Below are positions 76 through 57,900 of a stretch of 60,096 bases of DNA, piece by piece (the first letter of the stretch is position 1; each line of letters begins with the position of its first letter). The position numbers and the translations under genes are program-made. A model generated the notes under the pieces. The model was given only the letters and a program-made list of their open reading frames with translations. It made no database searches and had not been told where the DNA came from. The DNA lies in the NCBI GenBank assembly GCA_009602725.1, contig WELB01000079.1:542833-602928 (forward strand), written 5' to 3'. This DNA comes from Spirogloea muscicola (Eukaryota > Streptophyta > Zygnematophyceae > Spirogloeales > Spirogloeaceae).

Positions 76-2501
76 ATGGCGGAGCTCATGCGGCATGCCG
101 GCCTGATCGTGCGCCAGGTGCGACGCGCCCAGAAATCCAGAACCGCCGTCTCTCACCTTCTGCACAGCCATGCCGCCGCACCTCCTCCGGTGGTTACTGA
201 GCGGGTGATGTACATCTGTCAAGGTGCTTGCCTTTGTACTTGGCCACTCAGGCCCTCATCACTCGATACACACTTTATACTCTCTCTGCGGTGGTGCCGC
301 CTAAAACCCAGCCCGCCATTCTGGGGCTGCCCATCAGCGTGCTGCACCGCATTCCAAAGCCGGGGCTGTCCAAGCTGGCTGCCTGCTGTCGCATGTCACT
401 GGGCTGCCTCGGCTGGGCTGTCAGTGGTCGCCCTTTTGGCACAGTTGGCCATGCGATGGCATTTGTGGAAAGCGCATCTAGACGTCGGACGTGGAATCCC
501 TCAGCGTCGCGCACAGCTTCTTGTTGTAGGCACTGCCATGCCAAGTCATGCTGCCAGCAGAAGCTGTGGTAGCCTGTGATAGTCCTGGTGACTGGACGCC
601 CGCCTGTTGAATGATCGAGGTGCCGCTCAGGCTGGACAACTACGTCCTTCTAAGCAGCCAGCCGCTTAAGTATGGAGGTTGGAGCAGTGCGCGGCTGCTG
701 ATGCTTCTTGCTTTGTTCCCGAGCTGGAGCAGATTGCGCAGCACAAGTGGTCGTGGCCCTTTGAGAAGCCCGTGGATGTCGAAGGCCTGCGCCTCCGAGA
801 CTACAATGTGGTGCGGGCCTCCGCCTCCCTGTCCTCATGTGCCAGCCATGTGCCCGCCGGCCATTAAAGCGGACGCTTTGGTTAGGAGTCCCTTAGAGAG
901 TCAGGGAGTGATATCTGGACTTCTGAAGCCCTGTGTTAGCGCATCTGGCACCCTACTCATATAGGTGATCAAGAGGCCCATGGACCTTGGCACCATCCAG
1001 CAGCGAATGGAGAGGCTGGGCAGCGAGGGGGGTTATCACACACCCCAGGAGATTGCGAATGACGTGCGGCTAGTGTTCAGCAATGCGATGACTTACAACC
1101 ACGAGGGCACTGATGTCCATGTCATGGCCCGGACGCTTGCCAAGAAGTTTGACGAGCGATGGCGGGTGCTGCTTGCCCCCAGGCTCTATGAGGAGGCAGG
1201 TCACTAAGACTCAGACCTCTGCGCAATACCTGGTGGCCCTTTTGCGTTTTGCTCTGCCCCTGCTTTCCTCTGCTGTGCACTGACCAACTCAGTCGTGCTC
1301 TTTTTGCAGGATGAGAGGAGGGCCATTGAGGATTTTGAGGCTCGAAGCACAGAGCAGGCTGCTGACCTTGCTTCAGAAGAGGTTGCCTATGATCAGCTCT
1401 CTGACAACATTGTCAAGCAGGTTAGCTTCCACTTTCGGTTGCTCAATATGGTATTGAAAGCGATTTTGAAGGCGACAAGGATCAATGGCAGGACTGACCT
1501 GCACAGGTGCAGCTGGCATTTCTGAGAGTCATCCAAGTGGGGATCATATGAGGCTGCCTGCATAGGAAGTACCCGCTTGCATCACATAGAGAGATTGTTG
1601 GGTGCTCAATCAGAGGGATATTATCGGAGCCTCCTCGCAAGAGAAGGGCGAGCTGAAAGCATGTTCTTGCAGTTAGATGCAATCGACGTGGAGCTGGAAG
1701 GCCTGAAGCAACAAGTTGTGTCTCAATGCAGGCATGACAGCCACTCACCCATGCTGACCTGATTGTGGCCATTACGGTGCCACACGGCTTTGCTCCAGGC
1801 AAGGCTGTTGAGCGAGAGAACTTGCTGCAAGTACTGCGCTTCACCTGCAATGCCAGCCACAAGATAGCCCTTGGTCATCAGGTCCATGTCTTATGTCCAG
1901 AATCCTAAAGCTTGGATTTCTTTGGAACCTTTCAGATTGATGACAGTGGAGGAGAAGCGGCAGCTGGGCCACAACCTTGGCAAGCTGCCTTCTCAGAACC
2001 TCAATCATGTCATACAAATAATTGCCCAGAAGAATCCGAGGTTCAACGCGTCTGCAGAAGAGGTGGAGGTGGACATTGACGCTCAGGTGCTCGGTCCTTC
2101 ACATGAAGCAACTGGTTTTGTGGTCACCCATGAGTCCCGTTTGTCATGTTTACAACAACCTCTGGTGACAGTGACAACCTATATTGACTTAGTGATGCAT
2201 TCATTAGCTCATCATAATCTCACTACTGTGGTGATGGTAGCCACCCCAAGGGTAACTGCCACTGTCTGCTCTGTCGAAATTGCCCGCTCCTTCTGGAGGG
2301 CACTATTTATGCTACTTGTGGGTGCTCTCCATGCAGGAGCCGGCAACGCTCTGGCGACTGCATCAGTATGTGCTGAGCGTCTTGACTAGAGAGCAGGACC
2401 AAAGCCAAACTTCAGGAGCACCTCCAGCCATGGTCCTTCCTTCCTTCCCCTTAGGCAGGAAGGCGGCGGCCATCACCCCTTCCAAAAGGCAAATGAAGTG
2501 A
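76..2501 (+). CDS. BET/GTE-type bromodomain plus NET-domain protein (GTE1/GTE6-like)
   Basis: Probable chromatin reader that binds acetylated histone tails and supports transcription in the nucleus. The exon model is phase-consistent: 76-117, 724-810, 965-1195, 1310-1420, 1592-1714, 1799-1830, 1936-2086 and 2337-2501, giving about 313 residues. The bromodomain starts at HKWSWPFEKPVDVEGL, continues through VIKRPMDLGTI and keeps the acetyl-lysine-binding Asn in NAMTYN. The extra-terminal (NET) domain follows from LMTVEEKRQLG to EVEVDIDAQ. One bromodomain plus NET is the architecture of plant GTE proteins, and the HKWxWPF start resembles Arabidopsis GTE1/IMB1 and GTE6. The 1196-1309 intron needs a GC donor (GAG|GCAGGT) to keep frame. 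The 32-nt exon at 1799 and the 1592 acceptor are the least certain parts. The start at 76 is chosen because that short exon ends in a donor of the right phase. The first intron holds a retroelement-derived repeat. Confidence 0.85.
185..260 (+). mobile_element. Retroelement-tail fragment inside the first intron of the bromodomain gene
   Basis: The stretch GGTGGTTACTGAGCGGGT followed about 20 bases later by TGCTTGCCTTTGTACTTGGC is repeated almost exactly at 36558-36636. There it follows a stop codon that ends the conserved C-terminal peptide of the dispersed retroelement family. It is therefore read as a short 3'-end remnant of that family within an intron. Confidence 0.55.
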
Positions 2502-15569: not shown

Positions 15570-18500
15570 ATGAATAACTACGGAAACGGCGGGTTCAGCC
15601 GGTTTGGATCCGAGCAGTTGAACGAGGTGTGCTCCCAAACCCCCCTCTATGAATGCCTCGATGTCTCACTGGTCACGGCCCTGTGTTGACCATGAGTTGA
15701 CTTTTTTGCCTGTCCAGTTGAGTCCGTTACTCTGAGCAAGATTGTCCTCTTTACCAAGACTTAAAAACGGTGGTGTAGGATAAGGTGAGGAAGGGTCAGT
15801 TTGCAGTGGCAGGGAGGGTGATAGGGGAGGCTTGCGTGTATTGAGCAGACACATAAGGTGCCTGCCTCAGGCAGTTGTGGTGGATGCTCTGTTGTCATGT
15901 GGAGGCAGGCATTGCTTGGACCGTGCAGAAACATGATGTGAGGTGTCGTTCTTGCCCTCTGATTCTCCAGGCCACCACCATCCTGATATTGTCCCTCTTA
16001 CACAAAGCAGATGTCGCAGCAAATGCACATGCTGGCACCTGCCAACAACAATCTAGCACCAACATCCAATCCCCAGTATGATGGCATGAGATTTGACAAT
16101 CTGGGCATGGCTCAGCTGGGCAACACTCAGTTGGGCGCCAGCCAGCCCCAGTCTTTGATGAGTGCACTCAATCTACTGCAGCAGGTCTGCCCTTCTACTG
16201 GCTTGCCACATAGCTGGTCGATGCTTGTCAGTTGCTGTGGCTTGTACTGCTTGTAGGGAACCGTTGTCATGTCAGTGGTCGTATTTGTTGCTCGTTATGA
16301 ATGGATTACCTTGAAGGATGGCATGCAGATGGTGTGATTTGCATTTGTATGTTTCTAGCATGACCAGTCAACTCAGTGAGAATGTGGTAGCTGTTGTTCT
16401 TGCCTATGGTAGCTTGCTTCAGTGTAGTACCTGATGTGAAGCAGGTATTGTCCTGTTGCTGGGTGTGGCATATTAGATTGAATCTTGCACTAGTGGTCTG
16501 AGGCGTTCTTGTATTTGCTGCCCTACTTGACAAATTTTCCTCGTCTGACTTGGTCTCGCGCAGAATATTGGAGCCTTGCAAGGTCTTGTGCCGCTCATTG
16601 CTCAGAACTCAGCTCAGCCCAATTCCTTGGTACAAGCTCAGCAGCTGCAACAGCAGCAGGCAGTCACTGCAACAGGCGTGGCAACAGTCATTTCTCAGCT
16701 AGCAGTTGCTGCTGCAGGCATCCTTCCTCAGATGAGTCAGTTGCAGGCACTTGGGAGCCAGACAACCGGGAGCCAGGATCAGGCTGTGCATTTTGCTGGC
16801 CTTCCGGCCCACAGCAACGCGAGCAATGGCAGTGCCCACACCTTGAATTTCTTCGTGTCTCCTTCTCAAGGGCAGGGTAATCAGCAGCATGGTGTGGTAG
16901 TGGAGGCACATGACCAGCAGGAACTTTTCCCGGTCACGACTGCTTCATATGACAACTCTCAGAAGGATACTGTGTCTGCTCAGACAACTGCGGATGATGA
17001 TGACAACTACGAAGAGACACTCCCTGGTCAGTAGCGAAGGGTGTGGCATTGATGGTTAAAATCTCAGTCTGCTTAAGGCTGAGCGAGTCACTCTGCATCA
17101 TACTTGCTATAAGTCATGCAGGGTTAGCTTGTAAACTGCTTGGATTAGGAGTTTTGCAGTTCGCATGTTTTAGATTGCTCTTCACCTGTTGTAAGGCGTC
17201 CAACTTTGGGAGGAAGCCATGGGCACCTTTGAGTGAGTTGTTCTCAATAGCCTCACTTGTCTTCATGCAGAGGGGTCTTATGATGTCGTTGAGATGGACC
17301 CTGTAGAGATTCTTGCCGAGCATACGCACTTCTGTGCCATCTGTGGCAAGGGTATGACAGAGCTTGCTAATGTATTTTGCTGATTCTTATCAGTATCCTG
17401 CAATAGGCCACCTTCTGCTCTTCCCAGTCTGCAATTTTGGAACTTGGTCTGACATATTCAGGCACTTGTTCTGACAGGCTTCAAGCGAGATGCTAATCTT
17501 CGAATGCACATGAGGGGTCATGGTGACGAGTATAAGACACCTGCTGCTCTATCCAGACCTGAGAGGCCTGGTCTTGGTTCTGTACCCGTTCGCCCCAAGA
17601 GGTGACAGCTTCCTTTAATATGCCCAGATTTATATTTCCCAACTTCGAGCCTAGGATCTTTGTATGTGAGCTGCATCGTGCCGTAGTCGGTAGTCCATGT
17701 TCTTCATGGCAGTACATATGCTACACATAAACAAGACAATGTCTGGATTGACTGAATTTGGACGGGTGCATGCTGTAATTTTCAATGAGCTTTCTAGCTG
17801 AAGAAAAGGATAGAAGTAGATTGTCTCAGCCCCTTCACAGTATGTGATCAATCTGCTCTGCTTCCTGGGTATTGGACAGATTCAGCTGTCCCTACATGGG
17901 TTGCAAGCGCAACAGGAAGCACCGTAAGTTCCAACCATTGAAAACCATGCTGTGTGTTAAGAACCACTACCGGCGGAGCCACTGTCCCAAGATGCTCACC
18001 TGTTCCAAGTGTGGCTCCAAGAAGTTCTCTGTGGTAGCCGACCTTAAGACGCATGAGAAGCACTGTGGAAAGGACAAGTGGCTGTGCTCCTGCGGGACAA
18101 CATTTTCTCGCAAGGACAAGCTTCTTGGCCATCTTTCTCTCTTCTCTGGCCACACACCTGCCATGCCATTGCATGTAATGGAGGAGGGAATCAACAACTC
18201 AGGAACCCCCCTGGTAAGAACATTCTGATGTGTTGGCTTGAACTGCTGTGGTGGTTCCCTGTCGTACCTCGTTGATTGTAGAGCAGCCCTCATGGGACAT
18301 ACATACAGCTGAAATTGGAGAAGAGTGCATGCAAGGCAGGTGACAGCACACAGAAAAGGTTGCTGAAGTTCACCCGCACTTGACAACAACAGAGCACCTC
18401 GCAAACATGGTTTGGCTTGACCTTGACCTTGACCTTGACTTCCTGCAGACACCAAGGAGCTCGCTTCCGGAGGTGAAGCAGGTGCATGCTGGTGATGCCA

Positions 18501-31100: not shown

Positions 31101-34100
31101 TGCCATTGCGTCAGGTTCGCATCGTGGTTGAGGAATATATTCTCAGGCTGGCTTAAGCACATTCTGAGCACTAAATATCCTAGATATCAACAAGTGAGTA
31201 GCAAAGTGCAAAGTGCACATCGTAGCAGTGGCGTCGGCGCTGGACTGGCCCTCTAGTGGGGTCGCCAGGCCATTGGCATCGCTGCGGCAATACGAGAGTG
31301 GCACGAGAAGGAGCGCAACAGCGCAATCGGGCACTCTCTGTCCTCTGCGAGCGAATCCGTCGCAGATGGCTCGTTCCAAGCCTGCACATGTCATCTTTGC
31401 CGCCATGGCGTGCCTTTGAGTCAAATCGTCCTACAGTTTGCAACCTAAGTCAATGACAGACAAGTACGTGGATGCCGGCACAGCAGAACTGACACATGGC
31501 TTTAGTGGAGCCCTGGCATTTGCTACTGTTCTCTGTTCAGCGACATGGCTTTTCTATTTTCTTATGTGCCTGCCTGGTATTGAGCAGAAGATGTTTGAGG
31601 AGGAGTTGGCAGCCGTGGAGAAGGACGGTGGCACCAGAAAAGGTCATGTGCCGCGGCAGCAAGTGACGCCGCTGAAGCTGGTACTGATGAGTGCCACACT
31701 GCGGCTGGAGGACTTTGCTGCCAACCAGCGGCTGTTCCCGACGCCCCCGCCGGTCATCGTCGTCCCCGCCAGGCAGTTCCCAGTGACTGTGCACTTCAGC
31801 CGGTGCACGGAGCTGGCCGACTACCTCGGCGCTTGCCGGAAGAAGGTCAAGGCCATCCACACGCGCCTGCCTCCTGGTGGTGTGCTGGTCTTTGTTACTG
31901 GCCAGCAAGAGGTTGAGGACCTCTGCCGTGCGCTGCGGCGGCTGTTCCCTTCACGCCGGGTGTGTGGCTCCGCTGGCGTGGAAGTGGGTGGTGGCGGCAG
32001 CGACGTGGAGCTGGACCACATCTGCGGAGCAGCGGACGGGCCTGCAGAAGAGAGTAGTCGGGCTGTGACTTTTGGTGGTGAGATGGACGAGGACAAGGAT
32101 GATGACTATGTCGGTAAGCAGGAGAGAGACGTAGCTGACATCGATGATGATGAGAGCGAGACGGACGACGACGTCAGCAGCAGGGAGGATGACGGGCAAG
32201 AAGGTGACAAATTCCTCCTCCAGGCTACCAACGAGCAATGGGAAGGTCCTGACACGGTAGCAAGCAAAGGGACGGAGGCAGAACTTTCCGTCACATACAC
32301 GAGGTGTGAAGAGGGGCTTCTGCCAGGAGCAGCGATCCAAGAGAAGGTGCCATGGAACATGGGTGTCGACCCCGGCGCACTGCATGTTGTGCCCCTGTAT
32401 GCCGCCCTCTCGGCAAGGCAGCAGTTCCGCGCATTCGCGCCGCCACCCGACGGTGCGCGGCTTGTCGTCGTGGCAACCAATGTTGCCGAGACATCGCTGA
32501 CCATCCCGGGAATCAGGTGGGCTTGTCAACAACAACTGGTCACTTTGTTATGCAAAAAACCTTGCACAAATGTGACGCCAAGGTCTGTCTCTATGCAATC
32601 TGGCTGAAGCTTGGGAGCGTTGGCTGATGTCACCTTGGCCTTATTGGCTTGCTAACCGTCAAATGGACTCAGAAGTTGGGGCTGCGCTACCTCAGAAGGC
32701 TTGACAAGGCCTTTGGCAACTCGGTGTGCACAGATACGTGGTGGACAGTGGTCGCGCAAAGGTGCGGAGCTACGATCTGAAATCAGGCGTATCGCATTTC
32801 ATGGTCCAGTGGATAAGCAAGGCATCTGCGAACCAGCGCGCAGGGCGGGCCGGCCGCACTGGCCCGGGGCATTGCTACCGCCTCTACTCCTCCGCACTCT
32901 ACAATGACGCCTTTCCGGAGCATTTGCCTGCAGAAATCACACGTGCCCCTGTTGAGGGGGTGGTCCTCGAGATGAAAGCCATGGGTATTGACAAGGTCAG
33001 CACAAGCAACAGCCTGGGCTACATGCATTCAAGGCCTTTAGATGCTGCAGACCCAGCACACTCCAAGTTGTACTTTGTAGCATCGATGGGCATGACTGAC
33101 CCTGGATATATAGTGGCATGAGTAGATGCTACGTTGCCGATCGGAGTCATTTCGCGCTGCTGCAGATTTCACGAGTATGAGCTGATTTTCAGCTACAACC
33201 TAAATCCTCTCAGATTATATGTGTCTGTTGACATTTCAGGTTGCCAACTTTCCATTTCCAACACCCCCGCCCCGAGCTGCGATGCTCGAGGCGTATCACT
33301 TGCTGACGGCATTGTCAGCGCTCTTATCAAGTGAGAGCCACGAGGTCACGCCCATCGGCAAAGCCATGGTCTTGTACCCAATAAGCCCGAGGAGCGCAAG
33401 GCTGCTGGTGGCAGCCGTGGCTGCTGTTGCACAGGGGATGGTGCCGGTCAGTGCAGCAGCACTGTTTCTGGCGCACGCTGTCGCAGCTGCCGCAGCTTTG
33501 AGTCTGGAAAGCCCCATGATGCGTGAGGCAGGGCAACTGGCGGCTAATGACGACAGTGATGCCAACAGTACAGCTGTAGCTCTATCGAGGGAAAGGAAGG
33601 GGGAGTTGGCCGGCAGTAGCAGCAAGGAGAAGCCCGTGCAGGATGAGCAGAAGGCGGCAGCTGAGCAAGTGCAATGGCAGGAGCGGCGAAAGCGCAAGCG
33701 GGATGCCAGAGCAGCGCAGTCCCGCTTTCGCGACTGTACTAGTGATGCTCTCACCATCGGTATGTGCACAATCAACCCTCCATTCCATGTAATTGCTGAG
33801 AGCTGCAACTCTGGCTGGCAAGCTGCAGAAAGTGGCAGAATGTTGAAGGCAGACAGGACTGTGTTTGTCACTGAGCTGCGACAGATGTTAAGTGCGGTGC
33901 AACAACCTGTAGCGCCCGATTCACGTAGTGTAGGCTCGTGCTACTTGCCCAGTACTTTTATTTCGATCGTTCACAGAATCTCAATCTACGTTTGTTCCTG
34001 ATACTTACATTTTTCTTTGTATTTGAAGTTTACGCTGTGACCAAGTGCCCTTAGCTCTTACCTCCTCTCCTCCCTCCTTTGCTGCAGTCAATGCATTACA

Positions 34101-35193
34101 CGCCTATGAGGCTGCAGAACAAGCCGAGGTGTTCTGCGCATCGTACTTTCTGCACGCACGGCGCATGCATGAGATGGCCGCACTTCGGCGGCAGCTGGCG
34201 GCTTGCGCAGTGCGGGCCGAGGCAGCTGAGCGGCGGCCATCCGTCTGGAACGCGCTGGAGGGCCTTGAGCAGGCATGGCGGGTTAGCAGTATGGACAAGG
34301 AGTGCGGAAAGGAGAGGCGAGCAGCCAGTGGCAGCTGCGCTCCCCCCCGTTTGGGGGCCGTGCAGCGCACATTGCTGCGGCGTGCTGTGCTTGCGGGATG
34401 GGCCGACCGCGTTGCTCGGCGTGTGAGGCCCAGCAGCGCCGCCAACACTGCCACGGACGGCAGTGGCCCTCGCATTCAACGTGCTGTGCGGTACCAGGCT
34501 TGCTCGCTCCCCGAGAATGACTTCGTGTATCTGCACCCGTCAGCAAGTACACATGCAGATGCACCGCAATATCTGGCGTACACAGACATAGTGCAGGGGG
34601 CGGCTGGCGTTTCTGGCGGTGGCCGTTGCTATCTGGCGTGTACAACGGCTGTTGACCCACAGTGGCTGTCAGTCGAGGCTGCTCCGCTCTGCACTTTCTT
34701 GGCAACTGGCGGCAGTGCCCAATCACCGCAACCAGCAACATATCATGTGGATACAGACCGTGTCGTCACCTGGATGGCACCGGTGTTTGGACCACATCGG
34801 TGGGAGCTTCCGCAGCATGCTGTGGAGGAGCGCGAACCAGCGCGGTGCACTGCGGCATTTGCTGCCGCGCTCCTGGGGGGCCGTGTGCTGCCGGCTCTCA
34901 AGGCGGTGCGCTCGCATCTCTCCATCCGGCCTGAAGCGCTGCTCGGGCCAGGCGCCCAAGTGCAGCGGCGTAGCGGTGAGCTGCTGGCCGCGCTGGGGGC
35001 TGCGGGCGTCACGTCGCGACGCCGCCTTGCGTCCCATTGGGCACAAGACTCTCGGTTCCTGCTCGCCGAGCTCACGGCGTGCCTACAGGGTGCTAAAGCG
35101 CAGGCGCTCTTGCAGTCAATTTGGGCTCAGCTGCTGGTGGAGGCTGGCGTGCCAGGAGTGACGCACGAGGAGTCACAAGTCTTGCTGCTCTGA
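28180..35193 (+). CDS. DHX37: DEAH-box RNA helicase, DHX37/Dhr1 (Ecm16) type
   Basis: Nucleolar ATPase that in yeast and animals releases U3 snoRNA from pre-18S rRNA during small-subunit assembly. Twelve phase-consistent exons: 28180-28316, 28498-28549, 28832-28903, 29090-29139, 29318-29369, 29585-30430, 30599-30826, 31001-31114, 31588-32516, 32734-32995, 33240-33759 and 34088-35193, about 1455 residues. The N-terminus is basic. Helicase motifs in order are [94 protein letters not shown] and [29 protein letters not shown] just after the core is typical of DHX37 rather than other DEAH helicases. A long acidic insert (around 32080-32200) lies between motifs IV and V, as in other family members, and a second charged insert lies near 33590-33720. 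Confidence 0.94.
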
Positions 35194-40072: not shown

Positions 40073-43000
40073 ATGGGCCTGCCGGAGACGTGCAGCGTCG
40101 GGCCGGGCGCGCCGTGCTCGGCGCCCGTGTTCCGCTACTTCCTAGACTGCGTGTGCTCGCGGCGCGACGCCGCGTCCTTCGGCCTGGGCCTGGCGTCCAT
40201 CCTGTGCTGGGCCGTCGCCGAGATCCCCCAGATCGTCGCCAACTGGCAGTCGGGCAACGTCGAGGGCGTCTCCCTCGCCTTCATCCTCACGTGGACCGTT
40301 GGGTGCGCCCTCCCAAACCGCCGCCTTGGCTCTGGCAGGCGCCGCAGACCGGCCAGCCGCCCTTGCCCGCGGCTGCTCGACGTTCTCGCTGCATTGGGAA
40401 AGGTCGCAGTTGCGCCCTGCGAGCGGCGCTCTCGTCCCGGCTACCTTATCGCCTGGAGTGGCCTTCAGCGGGCACCTCGGGCCCGCCGAGGCATCTCAAG
40501 CGAGCCCCTGCGGGTTACACATGCGGCTGCGTGGTTGCGGCGTGTCAGGGACGTGTTCAACCTCGTCGGCTGCCTCATGGACCCCGTCACGGTGCACTCA
40601 TCAACCCCCTCAATTTACTGTCTGAAGCAAGGCCCTTTTTTCCGAATCCACAAAGCAGCTGCAGCTCAGACCATACTAGCATGTGCGATGCTTGTGCTGC
40701 GGCCATGGCTGCATGCTGGGAGCAGCACCGATATGGTGCAATCGCCAGCCTCTCGGATTGCTCCTGAAATTTAATGTTGTCCGCTTGTGCCTTCCTCCAT
40801 TGCAGATCCCCACGCAATTCTTCACGGCCGTGGTAATTGCTGCATAGTCTATCGCACCACCCTCCTGCCTCCCCTCCCTCCTTGTTGCCCAAGCACCCAA
40901 TTGCAGTCGGAGCGCCAGTCCACTTGCATGCACAGACGCTTCGGCTCCATGTTAGGAGCTTCAACGCTTGCGCCATGCTGCCATAAGGCTGCCGATGTTG
41001 CTAGCTTTCAACCTCGTTCCCCATCTCCCTAGCTGCTGCTAGGAAGTCTTGGCTTTTCATGCTAGTATTAAGTGCTGCCACACCTGCCGGTGCATCTCGC
41101 AGCTCTACACCGCCACCACGCTCATTCTGGTCTTCCAGCACATCTGGTACAATTGGTCAGGCCGTCACGATGACCCCAGCTCCCAGCAGGTGCAGTGCTT
41201 TGACAGCTAACTGCTTAGGTTGCTATGGCCTTGCAAAGAAGGACACCTTGTTGGTCAGCAACTGCGAGCGGGCGAGCGGTGGCTGCTCAGAGATATGTCA
41301 GCGAGGGAATGTGATCTCCTTGGTGTGCTCTGCTTGGGTGCTGTGGTGCAGGCCGGCGAGGAGAAGGAGGTGGTGCACCGGCAGCACCGTCCGGCGGATG
41401 CGCTGGAGGGGCTCTTCCCTTCCGACCCCACGCTGGCCGATGGCACCAAGATTCCGGGTGTCTCCAGCAGGCGCTCAGAGCGTGGGCGGCCGCCAATGCC
41501 CGTCCCAAATGCGGCCCCCACGCGTACCAATCGCCAGTAAAGCCCCAGAGTCCCACCCCTGCCCTAGAAGCTGCCATGCATGCTCAGCGGTTGTTGTCTA
41601 GTGGCAGACACGCCCCACGACTCAGCTATTCTGCTCCAGTCCGAAGCACATCAGCCTCTGTCTGACTGCAGCTGATCTGCAATGTTGGTGTTCTCTCTTG
41701 GCAGGTCACCAAATTCGTATGGCAGCTGGCGGCGCTTGACGCTGGCCACGTCGTATGGGACCGGGACATCACCGCGTCTTCGAGCTGTAGGCCCACATTC
41801 ATTGAGGCCTACACATCTATGCTCCTGTGATAGTCACTGTATTTTTGATAGAACACCCGCTCCCGTGCAGCAGTCAATCAGAGCTAGCTGCGCCCCTTTA
41901 AAAGTTGGAGAGTGCGAGGCTGCCTCTAGTCAGTTGCACTGTGAGGAAGGCGTTGAGTGAGGTGGGATCGCCATGCAGCTGGTGCAAGCCATGATCTGAA
42001 TGCTGGAACTGCATTTGTGAGGTGCAGGTGCTCATTGGTGCAGTCCTTACAGGAGGTTTGGGGATGAGGCTGCCGTGGCTGGCGGGCAACTACCTTCCAG
42101 ATGGCAGGAGCGACGGGGCAGTTTTTGTGGATGGTGGGAGGAAGCTTCTGCAGGTTGGTGGAGCACCTTGTGCTTTGTCCAACATGTCCAAACACTGCCC
42201 ACTTTTGCCATAACCAAGGCCTAAAGTCCTGAATGTTGAAGCCTGAGCCAAAGACCTGTGACCACATTCGAGCCCGTTCATTTTGGCAAGCATATGGTGC
42301 TGGCATCAAGGCCGTCGCCGAGATTTGACTTGGCCATTCTGACAATGCGGCAGGCTGGAAAGTTCTCGTTTCTTGGGAGTCGAGGCGCACTGCGCGTGGC
42401 AGCAGAGGAGGGCGACATGCGGTTGGTGGTGGGCCAGATTCTTGGCTGGTCCATGACCTGCATTTACCTAACAGGCCGCCTGCCGCAGGTGACCTGTTTG
42501 CGTCCCCGCCGTCCTTGCGTCCAGGCCTTTGTTTCAATACCCGGTTTTTCTCTTTAGTCACAGCTTGTGTGCAAGAAAGGTAAAGCTCTGGCACTCTAGC
42601 TCAGGTATCAGGGGTACCCTTCAAGGGCGACCTTGTCAACAGTTCCCAGATGACAAATTGCCAACAATCATGCAGCAGTGCTCTACCAGCACTCTTGTTG
42701 ATGTCTGCTGTAGAGCAGGCCTCCACGTAATGTCTTCTTACATTGAGAAAGATGCCATTTGTCCAGATTATCCTGAATGTGACACGAGGTAGTGTGGAGG
42801 GCCTCTCCTTCTCTATGTTTGCCTTCGCCATAGGCGGCAATGCAACGTATCTGGCAAGCATCCTTGTCAGAAGCCTTCAGTGGGGCCGCGTCAAGCCCAA
42901 TCTGCCGTGGCTGGTTGACTCCGCCTGTTGCTTGGCCATGGACTTCTCCGTATCCTGGGCCTCAGTCATTCTGCTATTTAGTGCCACAAAAAGTTCACTG

Positions 43001-43370
43001 AAATATGTTGCAGGTTGCACGTTGACTGCAGAGCTTGCATCTGGTCTGTTGCTCGTAATTTTGTCTTGCCTGTGTCCTTGCCTGTCTGCTGATGTTCTAC
43101 ATCAGATGTATTACTGGCCTGTAGTCCAGTAGCTAATGCATCAATAGAGATTCTGATTCACAGTTGAAGGCCTGATGAGAGAAGCTGTACTGCAGCAATT
43201 TGCATGAGACTTACACAAATGGTAGATTTGAGGTCAGCATCCTCTGCGTGCCTTCTTTGACTTTTGGAAATCAGATCCTGGGACAGTTCATCTACTCGAA
43301 CTTCAGGAGCAAGAGGACAGATAATTACTCTGCACTCAGGTGTGCTCGTGGCACTAGATTAGATGACTAA
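40073..43370 (+). CDS. PQ-loop repeat membrane transporter (YPQ/PQLC2-like)
   Basis: Proteins of this type export cationic amino acids from lysosomes or vacuoles in animals and yeast; the plant members are less well known. Supported exons: 40073-40302, 40549-40591, 40806-40832, 41103-41189, 41352-41536, 41705-41786, 42028-42153, 42354-42488, 42767-42949 and 43275-43370. The first PQ loop is AVAEIPQIVANWQSGNVEGV. The second is YLTGRLPQIILNVTRGSVEG, followed by FAFAIGGNATYLASILVRSL and PNLPWLVDSACCLAMDF. Between them are IPTQFFTAV, a helix LYTATTLILVFQHIWYNW and a long soluble Arg/Ser/Pro-rich loop. The exon joins at 41536-41705 (probably one more exon near 41550-41660) could not be made phase-perfect. 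The C-terminus RSKRTDNYSALR and the stop at 43368-43370 are clear. Confidence 0.88.
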
Positions 43371-45282: not shown

Positions 45283-45912
45283 NNNNNNNNNNNNNNNNNN
45301 NNNNNNNNNNNNNNNNNNNNNNNNNNNNNNNNNNNNNNNNNNNNNNNNNNNNNNNNNNNNNNNNNNNNNNNNNNNNNNNNNNNNNNNNNNNNNNNNNNNN
45401 NNNNNNNNNNNNNNNNNNNNNNNNNNNNNNNNNNNNNNNNNNNNNNNNNNNNNNNNNNNNNNNNNNNNNNNNNNNNNNNNNNNNNNNNNNNNNNNNNNNN
45501 NNNNNNNNNNNNNNNNNNNNNNNNNNNNNNNNNNNNNNNNNNNNNNNNNNNNNNNNNNNNNNNNNNNNNNNNNNNNNNNNNNNNNNNNNNNNNNNNNNNN
45601 NNNNNNNNNNNNNNNNNNNNNNNNNNNNNNNNNNNNNNNNNNNNNNNNNNNNNNNNNNNNNNNNNNNNNNNNNNNNNNNNNNNNNNNNNNNNNNNNNNNN
45701 NNNNNNNNNNNNNNNNNNNNNNNNNNNNNNNNNNNNNNNNNNNNNNNNNNNNNNNNNNNNNNNNNNNNNNNNNNNNNNNNNNNNNNNNNNNNNNNNNNNN
45801 NNNNNNNNNNNNNNNNNNNNNNNNNNNNNNNNNNNNNNNNNNNNNNNNNNNNNNNNNNNNNNNNNNNNNNNNNNNNNNNNNNNNNNNNNNNNNNNNNNNN
45901 NNNNNNNNNNNN
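45283..45912. other. Assembly gap (630 N)
   Basis: A run of N flanked by GA repeats. Open frames that cross it are meaningless. Confidence 0.99.
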
Positions 45913-46229: not shown

Positions 46230-48686
46230 CTACTTGTAGGAAGAGAGCGGGATGCGTTTGAGGCGCGGGAGCCAGCTGAGGAGGTGGGGGCTCCCAGCTA
46301 TCAGCTCTAGCCACGAGCTGTGCGTCTGTCTCCCTCAGTCCAGAGAAGATCAAGCAGATGTGGCCGGTCAGAATACTCCATAGAGCTACCATCCATAGAG
46401 CTACCGCAGCTTACGACACTGGTAAAGCTGGTGTATACATGTCTCAGCAAGCCTGTCCACTATGTGCAGGCTCTAAGGCCATGCTTCCAGTACAGAGAGC
46501 AGCCAACTCCTCTGCTGCCATTGGGGGCCAAGGAAGAAGATGTGCACCTGTTGAATGACGTCCTGGGCATAGTGTTGGTCCCCAGCACGCTCGTTCAGGC
46601 CGAACAGATTCTCCTGGTCGTGCACATCCAGGCAGTTTCCAGTCCTCAACCACTCCCGGATCTCGTCAGTCGTTCCCGGCATGATCCTGCAAAGCCAAAG
46701 TCAGCTTGTCAGACAAAGTGCACCAATTCTCGATTCTCATACATATGCAAGGTACATATTCCAACATTGGTACCAGAAGGTAGAAGATTCTTCAGTGTCA
46801 AGCTACATAAGGGATTAGAAAGCTTCAGCTATCTGTCACTGTTCTGACAGGCGTACGAGTTTCACAATGTCAGAACAGTATCTCAGTGTGGTCCTTGAAG
46901 CTGACCTCTCGAGGTCCCTAATGTCGTGACAGATGTCGGCCATGAGGTCTTGAAGTGCAATTGTAACCACCTTCCACTGCAGCTTGCCATCTTCGATTAC
47001 CGCAAAGAGACCCAAAGGCTTCACGCTGTAAACCTCTCCTACATTTGCCGCCCTTGTCCCAATCTCCACAGCTTCCACGGGCTTGCCTCCATACTGCACA
47101 CAGCATGAGCACTCTGCTGGCCTGAGCAGGCTGCAATGTGCCTCCTTCTGGCCTTTTATGGCTGTTCATAGCAAGTGGACTTCCATATAGCACTTGCTAG
47201 CAAGCATGAAATGTTAGTCACTCGTTGCAGACATCATGGTCCAGGAATGAAAATGGTGAGTGGTGCACTTCTTGGAGGCATTTCACACCAAAACGATGCT
47301 CATCTAGCATAATGTATTGGGATGCATGTCACATAGAATGCAGGGAATAAAGCTGGTGGCATGCAGGGTACGAGACATGGCAGCAGTGATGGATGCTTGT
47401 GCTTCCCAAAAGTTTCTTGTGAGAGCTCTTCTGGCCTGGCTTCTCACCTGAAAGCCTCCATAGCTGTCATTCCGGAGAGATGGATCACCAAATGTTTGGG
47501 GTAGGGAGCCGTAATTCCACTGCACATTCTCAGCAAAGTGAGCAGGCTTGCCCGCCCGGGCAGCAATCCGGAGGGGTGTGTGCTGCTCGTCCACAGCTAC
47601 CTCCCACCTGGCCCATGTACCGCGTGGTGTGTGGCAGACAAAGTTGAGGCCCGAGTCTGCAGCCTGCAGCGGGACGCAGTGCCACGGAGAGACCTGCAGC
47701 CCAGTAGCAGACACAGCGCAGTAGCAGACAAGGCCAGTGTTAGAGCACAGTGCAATTTGACTTGAAGAGGCTGCAGCAATTTGGCACGGTCTTTATGGCA
47801 GCCCTATGACAAGCTTGGCAAGGCCACAAATCTGGGCAGTAGCCAGCATACCTGTCTGCCCAGGTGATCAACAACGAGCATGCGTGCCCGGAGTGTGCCG
47901 GCGGGGCCAACGTCCACAGCCTGCCATTTTGCACAGCTGCTGTTCCTCGAGGGCGAGAGCGAGAGCTGCCCTACTTGTCTGGTGAGGGTTAGGCTGCGTA
48001 ATGCCTCCCCGTCCTCAACCTTGCAGACCGACTTGTACGCATCGTCTGCTTCGAGGGCACCAAGTGCCAGGCCAGCCAGGCTCCCTAGACTGGAGTCTAC
48101 CTGTGGTCACAACAAGTGGTCGTCCACCAGGATCAGCTAGCGTTTGCGGGTGCAGCGCTGCAGTGGCAATAGAGACCCATGAAGCCTCTGCCACACACAA
48201 TCGTGCTGTGTGTGTGCCAGGAGGCAGGCGTGCAGCACAGACTGCAGATTATCGAGGGCAGCAGCTTGCAAAGGCGGCGACATTGCATATTGTAGCTAGA
48301 GCCCATAGTCATAAGACACGGTCAGAGGTCGTAATCTGCGACTTGACATGTGGACCAAGACAGTGCAGCTGAGGCAGCAGAGTTCTCAATGTTGGCAAGG
48401 ACACTAGAGCTGCACTTGCTATCAAAAGTTGACTCCACAGCTGAGCAGGGCTTTCCCGCACCGTTTCAGAGAGCCCGGTGCAGCTGCCGCAGCTGCTGGC
48501 GTCCCAGTCTTCATCCACGTCGCTGTCGTGCTCAAGGTCGTCCTCCGACTCCTCCGACGAGTCGGCAGCCCACTTGCGCATAGCTGCCACGAGCAGCGAC
48601 TCGCCGTGGCGAGCAGTGCCCACATCGCGCCGCCCCTCGGCTTCCCACGCACCGCGGTCGAGCAGCACCGGAGCAGCCTCAGCCAT
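46230..48686 (-). CDS. Family I inorganic pyrophosphatase-like protein lacking catalytic residues
   Basis: Six phase-consistent exons: 48686-48462, 48100-47852, 47693-47448, 47093-46906, 46686-46548 and 46325-46230, about 315 residues. The fold is recognisable as LVVDHLGRQVSPWHCVPLQ, QWNYGSLPQTFGDPS, PVEAVEIGTRAANVGEVYSV, KPLGLFAVIEDGKLQWKVV, CHDIRDLER, PGTTDEIREWLRT, ENLFGLNERAGDQHYAQDVI and a final THSSWLELI. The essential GDNDPxD motif is replaced by YGGKPVE, the DEGExDWK motif by EDGKLQWK, and the KPENxF lysine is gone. Most metal- and phosphate-binding residues of active enzymes are therefore missing, while Tyr of NYG and Lys of WK remain. A 75-residue N-terminal extension is acidic (SSEESEDDLEHDSDVDEDWD). 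It is read as a pseudoenzyme; a structural or regulatory role is inference. Confidence 0.88.
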
Positions 48687-51959: not shown

Positions 51960-54900
51960 TTATTGTTGCGTGGGTTGCAAGCTCGAGTCCACGACAGATA
52001 TGTAGCCCTCATACGACATGATGATGGCGACGACATACATTGTTGCTGCGTACACGTCTGGCAGGGCTTGGCTGGGGTGCTTCACCTGCGCAGGTCACCA
52101 CATGTACATAAGCGGCACACGACCTCCTGGCACAAGCCTACCATTGTGGACATGAAGATGGCCACGGATGCAGCATCACAAACTTGACTTCAGCTTGTCT
52201 TTACGTCGCAGTGAATGACAGCAATCACCCAGCTTTGACCAAGGATACAGATGACTATCAGACTAGTCCGGGCAACATGATACAACAGCTTCAGCACCAG
52301 GTCACAGCAAGACTTGCCCACCTTCTGAGCAAAAGTGGCAGCAAGGCGTTGCCGGAGGAGATGGATCTGAGCCGCTTCCATGGCAGAGCACTGGTAGCGC
52401 AGCCACCGATCAACCACAAGAGCTACCTGATTGTCAGGGTCGCCCATCAACTGTTCTTGCTGCTGTTGCTGCCGTTCTGCCAGAGCCACGGGGTTGACCT
52501 TCACCGGAGCCTCCTGTGATAAGGCACAAACAGCTGAGTCGAGATGAGGACGAGGCCAGCAGATAGTGAGCTGAGACCCCGCTGAGACCTGCTCAACCCT
52601 GCTCAACCCTACATTGTGTTCACAATATTGAATGCTGTACCCCTTTTTCCCCGTCAATCAGCACAATCAGCACAAGGCTCAAAGGGCTCAAAGATACATC
52701 ACAAGGAAAACAGCACTGTGATTGTAGGTCACCCAAAGATTACATATAAAGTAGAACAATCCTCTCCATAGTCCAACCACCATCAATTAATGCAATGAAG
52801 GGTTTTGAGAAGAGCAAGAAAGCATTAGCAATGTGATGTACGCCTTCTACCTCATCGCCACTCTCGCCATCAGCATCCTGGTCTTCTTCTACAACTGAGT
52901 CAAGTGGCTGCAGTGGTGCCACAACTACCTCTGCTGCAATGAGCAGCAGGGTGTGGGGCCGTATAAGAGTGCTTGATCGGATGGAGCACATAGATTCGCC
53001 TCTGGTCACCTCATCAAAGATGAGCAATGGTCTGGCTGAAGCTTCCTTGGAGGACAGTGCATCCCTGCAGGTTTGCGGTAGCGGTCACCATAGGGATTAC
53101 TGATATTGAGAACAGAGTTTACCGCCTGCAATACTGCTTAACTACCCAAGAGGTGACGCAAGACTTCATTGGGAGTCAGTCCCGCATTCCATGGAGGTGT
53201 GCCCTGCGGCACAGATTGTTTCCTTGGCCCCCGTCTGACGCTGCCAGCATGTGACCACCAGGCATAGGTGAAGAGGACAGCAGCTCACCCCTGGCTGACA
53301 GTTCTGAAATTGGCAGAGTGGGGATGTATCCGCACTTTCTCCCCGGTTGCGGTTACCACGAGCCCCTTAGGGCCACTACCAGAGAGCGGTGGGAGGACGC
53401 TTGCGACCATGGGGTATGCCCCCGCAGCCAGCACAGCACGGATGACGCCATTGTTCTGAGCATTGGCGCTGCAGGGATGGGCGCCCGATGGCACAAGGCC
53501 CATCTGGACGAGCTCCCGTATCAGCTGTTGCCGCATGCCGGCTAGCATGTGCATGATACCCCCACTGACAAAGTTGGCCGAGCAGAAGGCTGAGTCGCTC
53601 CGTGCAGCTTTCGCTTGCTGCCAGCCGTCAAAGGCCTCAATCACCGCCAGGTGGTCACTGCCACCTCCGTACACGGCTGCAAATGCATGCCTGGCTGCCA
53701 GCGCTCTCCTTTTCTGCAACGTGCGGAGGCATGGACTCTGCATATTAGCCCAAGGGTTGGACTTTAAAGCTCCAAGCAACAACTAAGAATTTGCTCCTGT
53801 CCCAAGAGGTGGTTACCACAGATGGCCAGTCAAACGCGACTTGGCCACAGTCAGGCAGTAAAGGGCCAGCTAAAGAGTACAGCTAAGACGCGGACACACA
53901 GTATTGGTCATGTCCAACCATCTACTTGCTTGCCTGGTCGGGGGTGATGGGCATGACGAAAGGATCCCGGTACGCAGCAGCACATGCCACAGTAAGAGCC
54001 GGTTCAAGGCACTCCAGCAAGATGGCGTGTAGAAGCATTTTGCTGCAAAGCATGCAGGAAATGACATATCAACTCTGACAAAGTGCTGCTTGACAGCGCT
54101 CCTCGCCACGGTCACGTCGATGAATACGTAAAACATCTCTCTCTCAAGCGCCCTTGCAATTGTGGAGCATTTGCAAAGCTTGTAATATTATCACACAGGA
54201 TATTCTTGGTAGTAGAGGCAAGCATATGTCTTCATGTTTTCAGCACACTGCTATCACATCAAAAACCGGACCATAGTTGCCATAGCTCATACATACCCAA
54301 TCACAGGAGGAAGAGGAAGTGAACCCAGCTGTCGGCCCAGATCTGTCAGCCTTTCTTCTTTCCCCAAGGCTCCAATGTCTTGAAGCAGCAGCACTGCATT
54401 CTGAACAGAGATGTCAAGAGGCGGCTCCACTGCCTTTGCAAGGAACTCCCTGAGTCTGATGGAAGGATCCATCAATTTCACCTGCAGGTAAGAAAAACAA
54501 GAGTGCACTGTTTGATCTTCCAGTAGGCATGCTTTGCTAACTACTGCGTTTGTTGACTTTCTGGGGAGAGTGTGAGCCTGCAAGTGCTACTCAACGTACT
54601 GCTACAACCACCTCCATGCTTGGGTCTTGTGCAGGAAGTGGAAACACTCTGCAAGCAGGAGGCATTGTGTACATAGCCTGTGACTACGCAGTGGGACAAT
54701 GCATGACACAGCACCTGAAGACAGAGCTCCTCCAAGGGTGTGCGCTTGATCTCTGGCAGCTGATAATCTGGAAGGGACTCCACGCGAACCTTGGAGATAA
54801 GGTGGAAGCATACTCCTGGCCGAGTTCTACCTGCTCTTCCTTCTCTCTGCTTGACTGAAGCTTTGGATATCCAGGCGGTTTGAAGTGTGGACACATTGGT

Positions 54901-57900
54901 ATAAGGATCGTAGCTCTTCTCCTTTGCCCTGCCCGAGTCAATGACAACTGTGATATCATCGATTGTGACAGCTGTCTCAGCTATGTTGGTAGAGAGCACC
55001 ACTTTCCGTATCCCAGCTGGGGGCCTCTGGAAGACCTGGTATTGGAGATAGGGCATTGTGTAAGTGAAAGTATATCAGCTGGAAGGTCATATCATGTCCA
55101 TGGCACATGGCTACCACCGTACCTAGGCCTCAGCTCAACAATCAATGCATCTCTCCTCCTTTGTGCCTTTGGTCGCTTATGACCAGCTATACAGCCTGCC
55201 TTACAAGGATACACGTTTGCATTAAGTCCTATTCTCACCCAAATCGCGGAGAGCACAAAAACAGTCCAGATCATGTCAACCTCAAGCATACGTTCCTATT
55301 GTCAACAGCAGAAGAGGTCAAGGCTGTACCTTCTTCTGCTCTGTGGGGGTCACCATGGAGTGAAGGGGCAGAAGCAGAAACCTCTTTGCATCCCCAAGCA
55401 CTGGGTTCTGCGACAGCCGCTCCCGAAGCCTCAAAATTTCGTTCCACCCGGGTAGGAAGACCAGGGTTGCCCCCTCGTCCATCACGGAGCCCTTGCCCTC
55501 AGTCACTATGTGCACTAGAAGCTTCTCAATCAGGTCCAAGTCCACCTCTTCCTGGTCCACTGATGTATGGTACTGTCTCAGTAAGTGCTCTTCCCGCCTC
55601 CCCTGCTCCTCCTGCCTCCTCTTGTCCTCCACCTCTTTCTGTTGATGATTTAGCAGCTCAACAACCTGCACAGTGCAACAAGTGCGGAAAAAGTCTCATG
55701 CATTGAGTTTAGTGTTGTAACACTCCTGATGTGCTACAATCATCAGAACGAAGGTAGACGAGAAATCAGGAAGATGCAACAGATTGTCCCACCACATCCT
55801 AAGGATGACATCAGATTTTGCGGCTTTATGCTGCAGAGGTTTTGGTGTGCAAGACTGTCCAGGCAGTCATCCAGCATGCTAGCCCCACAAAGCCACTATC
55901 TTGCGTCTTGCCACATGCTGGTGTTGGTGCAGTTAGACTGGCCAGCTCCGAACACAGCGATATTGAATCCGAAGTAGCACCTCTTCATAACCATTGTTTG
56001 ATGCCCAATCAAGCGCCGTGTAGCCGTCTTGCGACCTTTGGCCTAAGTCCGCTCCCAACCGCAGCAACTCTCTTACTTCTTCCAGCCTCCCCTTGCCAGC
56101 AGTGACCATGAGAGCAGTGGCGCCTGAGAGAGAATGCCCGTAAGCCAGAAGCTGCCGGTGGTCCCCACCACCTTCCATGAATATATCAAAGAGAGACTCA
56201 AAGTCATCTTCGACCCACGCCTGCATCATACAGTCACAGGCAACTTTGGCACTCAAATGCTGGTCAATTATGCATGGACCCATCATAATCAACCGAAAAG
56301 ATAAGATGCACAGGGAAGGCCTGACTTTGGGAGCACAGTGAGATAGATTACCTTGCTCAGCGCTTCATCCATTGCAGCAGCATCGTCAGCACCAAGCTGC
56401 TCGATAATGTCGTCTGCATGTCTGTCATTTGAAGGTAAGGCTGGCCCTGATCTGCGATGACCACTTTCCCGCCAATGAATGAGTGCCAGTATGTCCTCCA
56501 GATAGTAGGATTGGACCTGATAGGTGGAACAGTCATAGGTTCCAAATTACAACATAGTAAAGCTTGGAACTGCATACCAGCATGCAACAACACAAGTCAG
56601 TCAACATCATAACTAAAATTTCACCTGTTGAGTTTCTTTAAGAAATGCATACCTCAAAGAGACAAACACAAAGGTTTAGAGGAGAAGCTGACCTTATGGG
56701 ACGTGACCCTTAGGTTTGGTTCTAGAGCTAACCGGGTGAGTGAAGCCAGGAACTCGCACAACAGGGCAACCTCCAAAGTAAGACACAAACAAGTCTATGT
56801 CTAGTGTGGCACTCATAAGAACCTGCATAGCACAGAGTAGAACAGTATCATGCAACATTTGTGGCAACGATGAATAGTCAGAGATGCTGTATGTGGCTAC
56901 TTACAGGACATTCTCGGAATACGAAGAGGTCAACATTGCATCATACTGCATCTGATGCATGAGGACATTCATACCACTCGAAGACTTGGAGTCAGCTTCA
57001 AGAAGTCCCTGTTCAGAGCAAGCATGGACCTTACGTCAAAGGCAGGACTGACGCTGTCACACAAGATTAGCAGGACAGCGCTGTCTCCTTTGAGAGAGGA
57101 AGTTTTTTATTGCATAGCATCTTGTGCTGGGTGGGAATGCCTACATAGTATGACTTCCAAGAACAGAATGTCATCAGGTGACGAGGAAGATTTGTGGTAG
57201 CATCACCTCAGGATGAGGAGCATGAAGTCTGCATAACGATCCCGCTCATGAATCTCGTCCTGAAGATGCAGGCAATAAGTCACAAGATATGGAAGATGTG
57301 CCCTTGATGAATCTTCTACGCTGTACAGTGGCATGATCAAGAATCTCCTACCATGCAGAGTCAAGGTCAAACTCACCACGATGATGTGTGTTGCATCTAT
57401 GCTGGCCTCCTCAAAATTCACTTGCGGATGCTTCGCACCATTTGTCACTCCCTCCTTGCCGGCTTGCCTTGAGGCAGCACCCAGCTCCACCAGCTTTCGG
57501 AGCACTACCCCAGTCGTGCACAGCATGAGGGAGGAGTGTGGGCCGCCCTTTGTCTCCAATCGAATCTGCTCACACCCAGATACTGCAGAGAGGTTATGCC
57601 AAAGTCTTGGTACGGGTCAACAAAGGAATGCTCAGCTGTCTGCTGAGGACAAGAATGACCAGCACATACAGCAAATGTACTACCACGCCATCAAGGCAGC
57701 TGCAACAATGTTTGAAATGATCATGCAGTACTACAAAAGTGGAGCCGCTGCCAGACAAGGGCTATTTATTACCTGATAGCCCACAGTATCCCCAAGGGTC
57801 TCCCCTCTTTCAGAGGCTATACGCTCCGCCACTGCACCAATACTGCTGCCTTTTGTAAACAATCACTGGACGTGGATGATGCAACTAGTCTAAGGCCACC

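Follow-up and report, generated by a model that had tools for sequence, protein, structure and literature searches.

The window, by which we mean the whole 60,096-nucleotide stretch of DNA analysed, contains a pyrophosphatase-like gene on its minus strand, with an ATG at 48686 and a stop codon that ends at 46230, exactly as first placed by the preliminary description. Six exons join in phase to give a product of 380 residues with a single terminal stop. The earlier statement that the exon joins are phase-perfect stands. All five introns are of the GT–AG type, range from 158 to 361 bases and each carry stops in all three frames. The GC content at codon positions 1, 2 and 3 is 0.66, 0.47 and 0.69, respectively. 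The short last exon is supported by the fact that matches to PDB proteins reach into it. The parts of the gene and the other features recognised in the window are as follows.

1868..2389, plus strand: open reading frame with a BET domain (bromodomain extra-terminal)
17848..18228, plus strand: open reading frame matching STOP2-like C2H2 zinc finger models (E 1e-20 and 5e-19)
31420..35193, plus strand: pieces of a DEAH-box helicase gene, with Helicase_C (just under the cut-off), OB_NTP_bind and DHX37_C
42731..43132, plus strand: PQ-loop repeat protein
45283..45912: gap of 630 N in the assembly, next to GA-rich simple repeats, about 317 bases downstream of the pyrophosphatase-like stop codon
46230..46325, minus strand: exon 6, residues 350–380 and the stop codon; THSSWLELIAG against THDSWKQLIAG in yeast
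46548..46686, minus strand: exon 5, last base of codon 303 to residue 349; Y192G and K193N
46906..47093, minus strand: exon 4, residues 241–302 and two bases of codon 303; YGGKPVE for GDNDPVD and EDGKLQWK for DEGExDWK
47094..47447, minus strand: intron 3, between two copies of TATGGAGGC; its three frames are free of a DxDxxD-type motif
47448..47693, minus strand: exon 3, residues 159–240, SPWH...NYGSLPQT; E189 (yeast E58) and Y219 (Y93) kept; E48H, K56R and R78A
47852..48100, minus strand: exon 2, residues 76–158; linker, then the start of the pyrophosphatase-like part at about residue 144
48462..48686, minus strand: exon 1, residues 1–75; start codon; acidic tract at residues 41–62
53285..55074, minus strand: second helicase gene, with Helicase_C and OB_NTP_bind (under the cut-off)

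No Rfam family or tRNA was found when the window was scanned. STOP1/STOP2 proteins are a group found in plants and their relatives, and because the open reading frame at 17848–18228 matches STOP2-like models we infer a green-lineage source for the DNA.

The family I pyrophosphatases are housekeeping enzymes and are strongly conserved. The Pfam family PF00719 matches residues 177–354 of the predicted protein with 72 bits (E 6.3e-20; profile positions 2–152 of 153), well above the curated cut-off of 23.5 bits that marks membership of the fold family, and the Pfam search of the 380 residues found no second family at E ≤0.1. Among the NCBIfam models a single pyrophosphatase model matches weakly, at 25.8 bits where the cut-off is 247. 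A phmmer search of the PDB (E up to 1) gave 29 distinct sequences. The top 25 are pyrophosphatases of the eukaryotic type, with E from 3.4e-34 to 2.1e-22 and with many yeast variants among them; three pyrophosphatases at E 0.47–0.88 and one epoxide hydrolase at 0.97 follow. The aligned span runs from about residue 139 to 363, and the acidocalcisomal, human and yeast enzymes are matched at E 3e-34 to 7e-32. By these matches, which lie far beyond chance, the predicted product of 46230–48686 is a member of the eukaryotic-type family I pyrophosphatase fold family; the Pfam score and the 25 PDB pyrophosphatases thus agree with the inorganic pyrophosphatase fold initially proposed here. Annotation by PF00719 alone would name the gene a pyrophosphatase because it passes the cut-off of that model.

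The active site tells a different story from the fold. We aligned the protein to yeast IPP1, numbered without its Met, using what we take to be the active-site residues of that enzyme (including the numbering of D147 and D152). All five metal-binding Asp residues are replaced in the alignment (D115G, D117K, D120E, D147E and D152Q), which confirms the previously noted changes of GDNDPxD to YGGKPVE and of DEGExDWK to EDGKLQWK. The place of the DXDXXD motif, given as the family I signature in an excerpt of PMC8386120, is taken by GGKPVE, and E274 and Q279 stand in the second metal-binding segment where yeast has D147 and D152. Further changes are E48H, R78A, Y192G and K193N, with a conservative K56R, and the active-site residues kept are E58, Y93 and K154. 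In the phosphate and pocket set (K56, R78, Y93, K154, Y192 and K193) only Y93 and K154 are therefore unchanged, alongside the Arg at K56 and A209, G319 and N320 at the other three positions. The suggestion that the phosphate-binding Arg and Lys residues had changed accordingly holds for R78 and K193, but K56 has become another basic residue. Excerpts of PMC11210485 name Asp115, Asp117, Asp120, Asp152, Tyr93 and Lys56 of the yeast enzyme, and describe Asn116 and Trp100 as helping to place the attacking water; these last two positions are Gly243 and Phe226 in the pyrophosphatase-like protein.

These losses are not spread evenly over the domain. Of 76 columns that are invariant among four active eukaryotic enzymes (yeast, human and two acidocalcisomal, two of the four being 86% alike), 41 are kept. 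Only 3/13 are kept at the active site, as opposed to 38/63 elsewhere (Fisher p 0.03, for an active-site list drawn in part from general background and excluding a fourteenth position, Y89, which varies among the references); put as losses, the contrast is 10/13 against 25/63 (40%). Asp117 is the water-activating residue of yeast pyrophosphatase (PMC11210485, excerpt), and the D117A mutant of mouse PPA1 has no detectable activity (PMC3633968, excerpt). Loss of PPi hydrolysis is very likely because all five Asp residues are gone, including the one that activates water and whose replacement by Ala abolishes activity in mouse PPA1. The alignment strongly supports the reading of the protein as a pseudoenzyme. 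Could it still be an enzyme with altered chemistry, one that acts on or binds another phosphate ester? The pocket is still polar, with E58, Y93, K154 and the Arg at K56 present and Lys and Glu gained, but a carboxylate is left at only two of the five metal positions (Glu at D120 and D147), D117 has given way to Lys, and R78, Y192 and K193 have been replaced as well; we regard such an activity as very improbable.

An assembly error or a wrong gene model might in principle mask a canonical enzyme, and the 630-N gap about 317 bases beyond the stop codon gives this idea some footing. Against it, each of the ten substitutions affects a codon of its own, and together they are spread over exons 3, 4 and 5 of an open frame. 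The preliminary description had named an exon 3/4 junction restoring GDNDPxD as one observation that would overturn its reading. We enumerated single-intron joins of exon 3 to exon 4 between 47693 and 46906, allowing GT or GC donors and AG acceptors, and none of the 456 open in-frame joins (0/456) carries a DxDxxD, DND, GDxD or DxDP motif. Nor is DxDxxD, DND, GDxDP or DxDP present in the three forward frames of the 2457-base gene span, and the D147 and D152 positions lie inside exon 4, clear of any junction. Alternative exon 3/4 splicing that restores the metal motif is thereby ruled out for single-intron joins, and an artefact of assembly or gene model is largely refuted and scarcely credible.

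The exon 3/4 junction does have an unusual feature. A direct repeat of nine bases, TATGGAGGC, is found at the end of exon 3 (47448–47475) and the start of exon 4 (47070–47093); exon 3 ends in ...TATGGAGGCTTTCAG and exon 4 begins with TATGGAGGC. Random pairs of 20-base segments share at least nine bases in 29/20000 draws from the window and in 35/20000 draws from the CDS, where overlapping draws were counted as none, and the chance over five junctions is ∼0.007–0.009. At each of the four remaining junctions the shared stretch is 4 bases at most. The repeat aligns exactly at the former G-D-N of the signature. We offer the conjecture that D115 was lost in a single event, when these nine bases at the exon 3 end served as template for a copy placed over the first bases of exon 4; target-site duplication by intron insertion may be another origin for the repeat. 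A plain five-residue insertion is argued against by the distance from PQT to EIG, which in the four eukaryotic references is only 1 or 2 residues shorter than in the pyrophosphatase-like protein.

Among the enzymes compared, the highest identity (39%) is to PPA6, the plastid soluble pyrophosphatase of Arabidopsis, which is also the nearest tree row by path; PPA6 was compared by a provisional sequence, and its grouping with the pyrophosphatase-like protein, to which a long branch leads, is tentative. The provisional PPA6 sequence has an equal length between PQT and VEIG. Unlike in the pyrophosphatase-like protein, the active site of PPA6 is presumably complete, and PPA6 carries a transit peptide. 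The pyrophosphatase-like protein is perhaps plastid-type by descent. The best PDB scores come from the acidocalcisomal pyrophosphatases 5c5v and 5cux (E 3e-34 and 9e-34; 37% identity), which we take to be VSP1 from a trypanosomatid source. These enzymes share with the pyrophosphatase-like protein a shortened loop before WNYG, but they keep GDNDPVD or GDNDPID and DEGKMDWK or DDGQMDWK. Yeast IPP1 and human PPA1 are 33% and 32% identical over the whole domain and have the SPWH/SPFH, NYG..PQT, EIG, WKV and TH..W segments in common with it. It differs from both in the replacement of the five metal Asp residues, R78, Y192 and K193, in its N-terminal extension and in the lack of a long C-terminal tail.

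Searches for relatives covered the window and several outside collections. Searched by tblastn at E up to 0.01, with the spliced protein and with five reference enzymes as queries, the window yielded this gene alone, and the E. coli pyrophosphatase gave no match there. A scan of viral contigs returned one locus, L001, with 30.8 bits, which we reject as a chance match: a stop codon interrupts the aligned frame, the stretch with EDGKLQWK occurs elsewhere, in an open reading frame on the other strand, and the record has no PF00719 match. Four further scans, two of viral contigs and two of prokaryote genomes (alignments A1 and A2), found no relatives in these collections, which were not aimed at green algae; because they are not meant to hold green algae, absent matches say nothing on orthologues. 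Chlamydomonas IPY3 is called a soluble inorganic pyrophosphatase in an excerpt of PMC3235179 and is also named in PMC4746324. In the open-access literature, as represented by titles and the beginnings of abstracts and with most subscription papers outside it, we recognised no natural non-catalytic family I pyrophosphatase.

Is the gene maintained, or is it decaying? We simulated neutral decay of the domain (codons 144–361) from the present sequence by substitutions only, to an amino-acid change of 40%, a target of our own choosing. The runs accumulated a mean of 4.3 stops, and no stop arose in 1% of 2000 runs. The end branch of the pyrophosphatase-like protein is 2.02 changes per site, compared with 0.04–0.48 for five canonical eukaryotic rows, one of them a provisional sequence; this contrast is partly one of sampling, as the two short VSP (acidocalcisomal) end branches share an inner branch of 0.81. 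The long end branch, together with the change of 25/63 invariants outside the active site, indicates that relaxation is in part real. Both observations would also fit a relaxed or young paralogue that is turning into a pseudogene, its function lost, its sequence drifting and its frame open by chance. This is an unlikely reading, though the most serious of the alternatives, for it must accommodate five clean introns and 380 open codons, losses that are enriched at the active site, and a probability of no stop of 0.01 under substitution-only decay, with indels not yet counted. We consider it probable that the locus encodes a real, maintained, non-catalytic protein. On the best reading, the gene is a rapidly evolving paralogue of the eukaryotic-type family I enzyme that is no longer catalytic. 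The intact frame and the concentration of losses in the active site lend only indirect support to its retention for another function. If the gene is maintained without the metal Asp residues, the pyrophosphatase barrel can serve without catalysis, and the protein would provide a clean test of fold constraint apart from chemistry.

What might such a maintained, non-catalytic protein do? It is predicted to adopt the normal barrel fold but to lack the Mg cluster. The Lys at the D117 position and the Glu residues at D120 and D147, with E58 and K154 kept, could form salt bridges that fill the metal site; K244 (D117 position) would lie between E247 (D120) and E274 (D147), with E189 and K281 kept, in a Mg-free salt-bridge core. 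Its action would then consist in binding, either to a partner protein or to an anionic ligand, and not in hydrolysis; such a binding role is the simplest reading and also the least certain step, a possibility that we put forward tentatively. NURF38 is a pyrophosphatase-fold protein with a role outside PPi metabolism. The action of PPA1 on JNK likewise ties the fold to such a role, but PPA1, unlike the pyrophosphatase-like protein, keeps its active site and loses the JNK effect with D117A (PMC3633968, excerpt). More doubtful still is the full proposal of a dedicated green-lineage family of non-catalytic pyrophosphatase-fold proteins under selection, with a Lys–Glu core in place of the Mg cluster, that would serve as a nuclear or cytosolic scaffold or a phosphate/PPi sensor and whose signature was possibly erased by the TATGGAGGC copy.

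An alternative is a heteromer, in which the protein would join a canonical soluble pyrophosphatase as its regulatory, non-catalytic subunit. Such an arrangement appears improbable. W52, the H87 loop and the C-terminal tail, which we take to make up the yeast dimer interface, are not kept (W52 is Gly, the H87-bearing loop is shortened and the long tail of the yeast type is absent from the alignment), which argues against pairing with a canonical enzyme in the yeast manner, and green plastid soluble pyrophosphatases are monomeric. In its favour are the common fold family, PF00719, and the statement in an excerpt of PMC8386120 that most eukaryotic pyrophosphatases are homodimers.

The N-terminal region bears on where a maintained non-catalytic protein would act. 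About 143 residues stand before the pyrophosphatase-like part. The acidic N-terminal extension of 75 residues noted initially corresponds to exon 1, which is indeed acidic (20 D/E against 6 K/R), but the acid is mostly at residues 41–62, where 13/22 are D/E, and the region preceding the domain is longer than stated. The first 40 residues contain 6 D/E, 6 K/R and only 2 S/T, a comparison of composition only, and an upstream exon may exist. Because this composition is unlike that of a transit peptide, the protein may lie outside the plastid. The acidic, Ser-containing stretch at residues 41–62 presumably resembles casein kinase 2 targets or interaction segments, and it would be an interaction or phosphorylation segment of a protein in the cytosol or nucleus.
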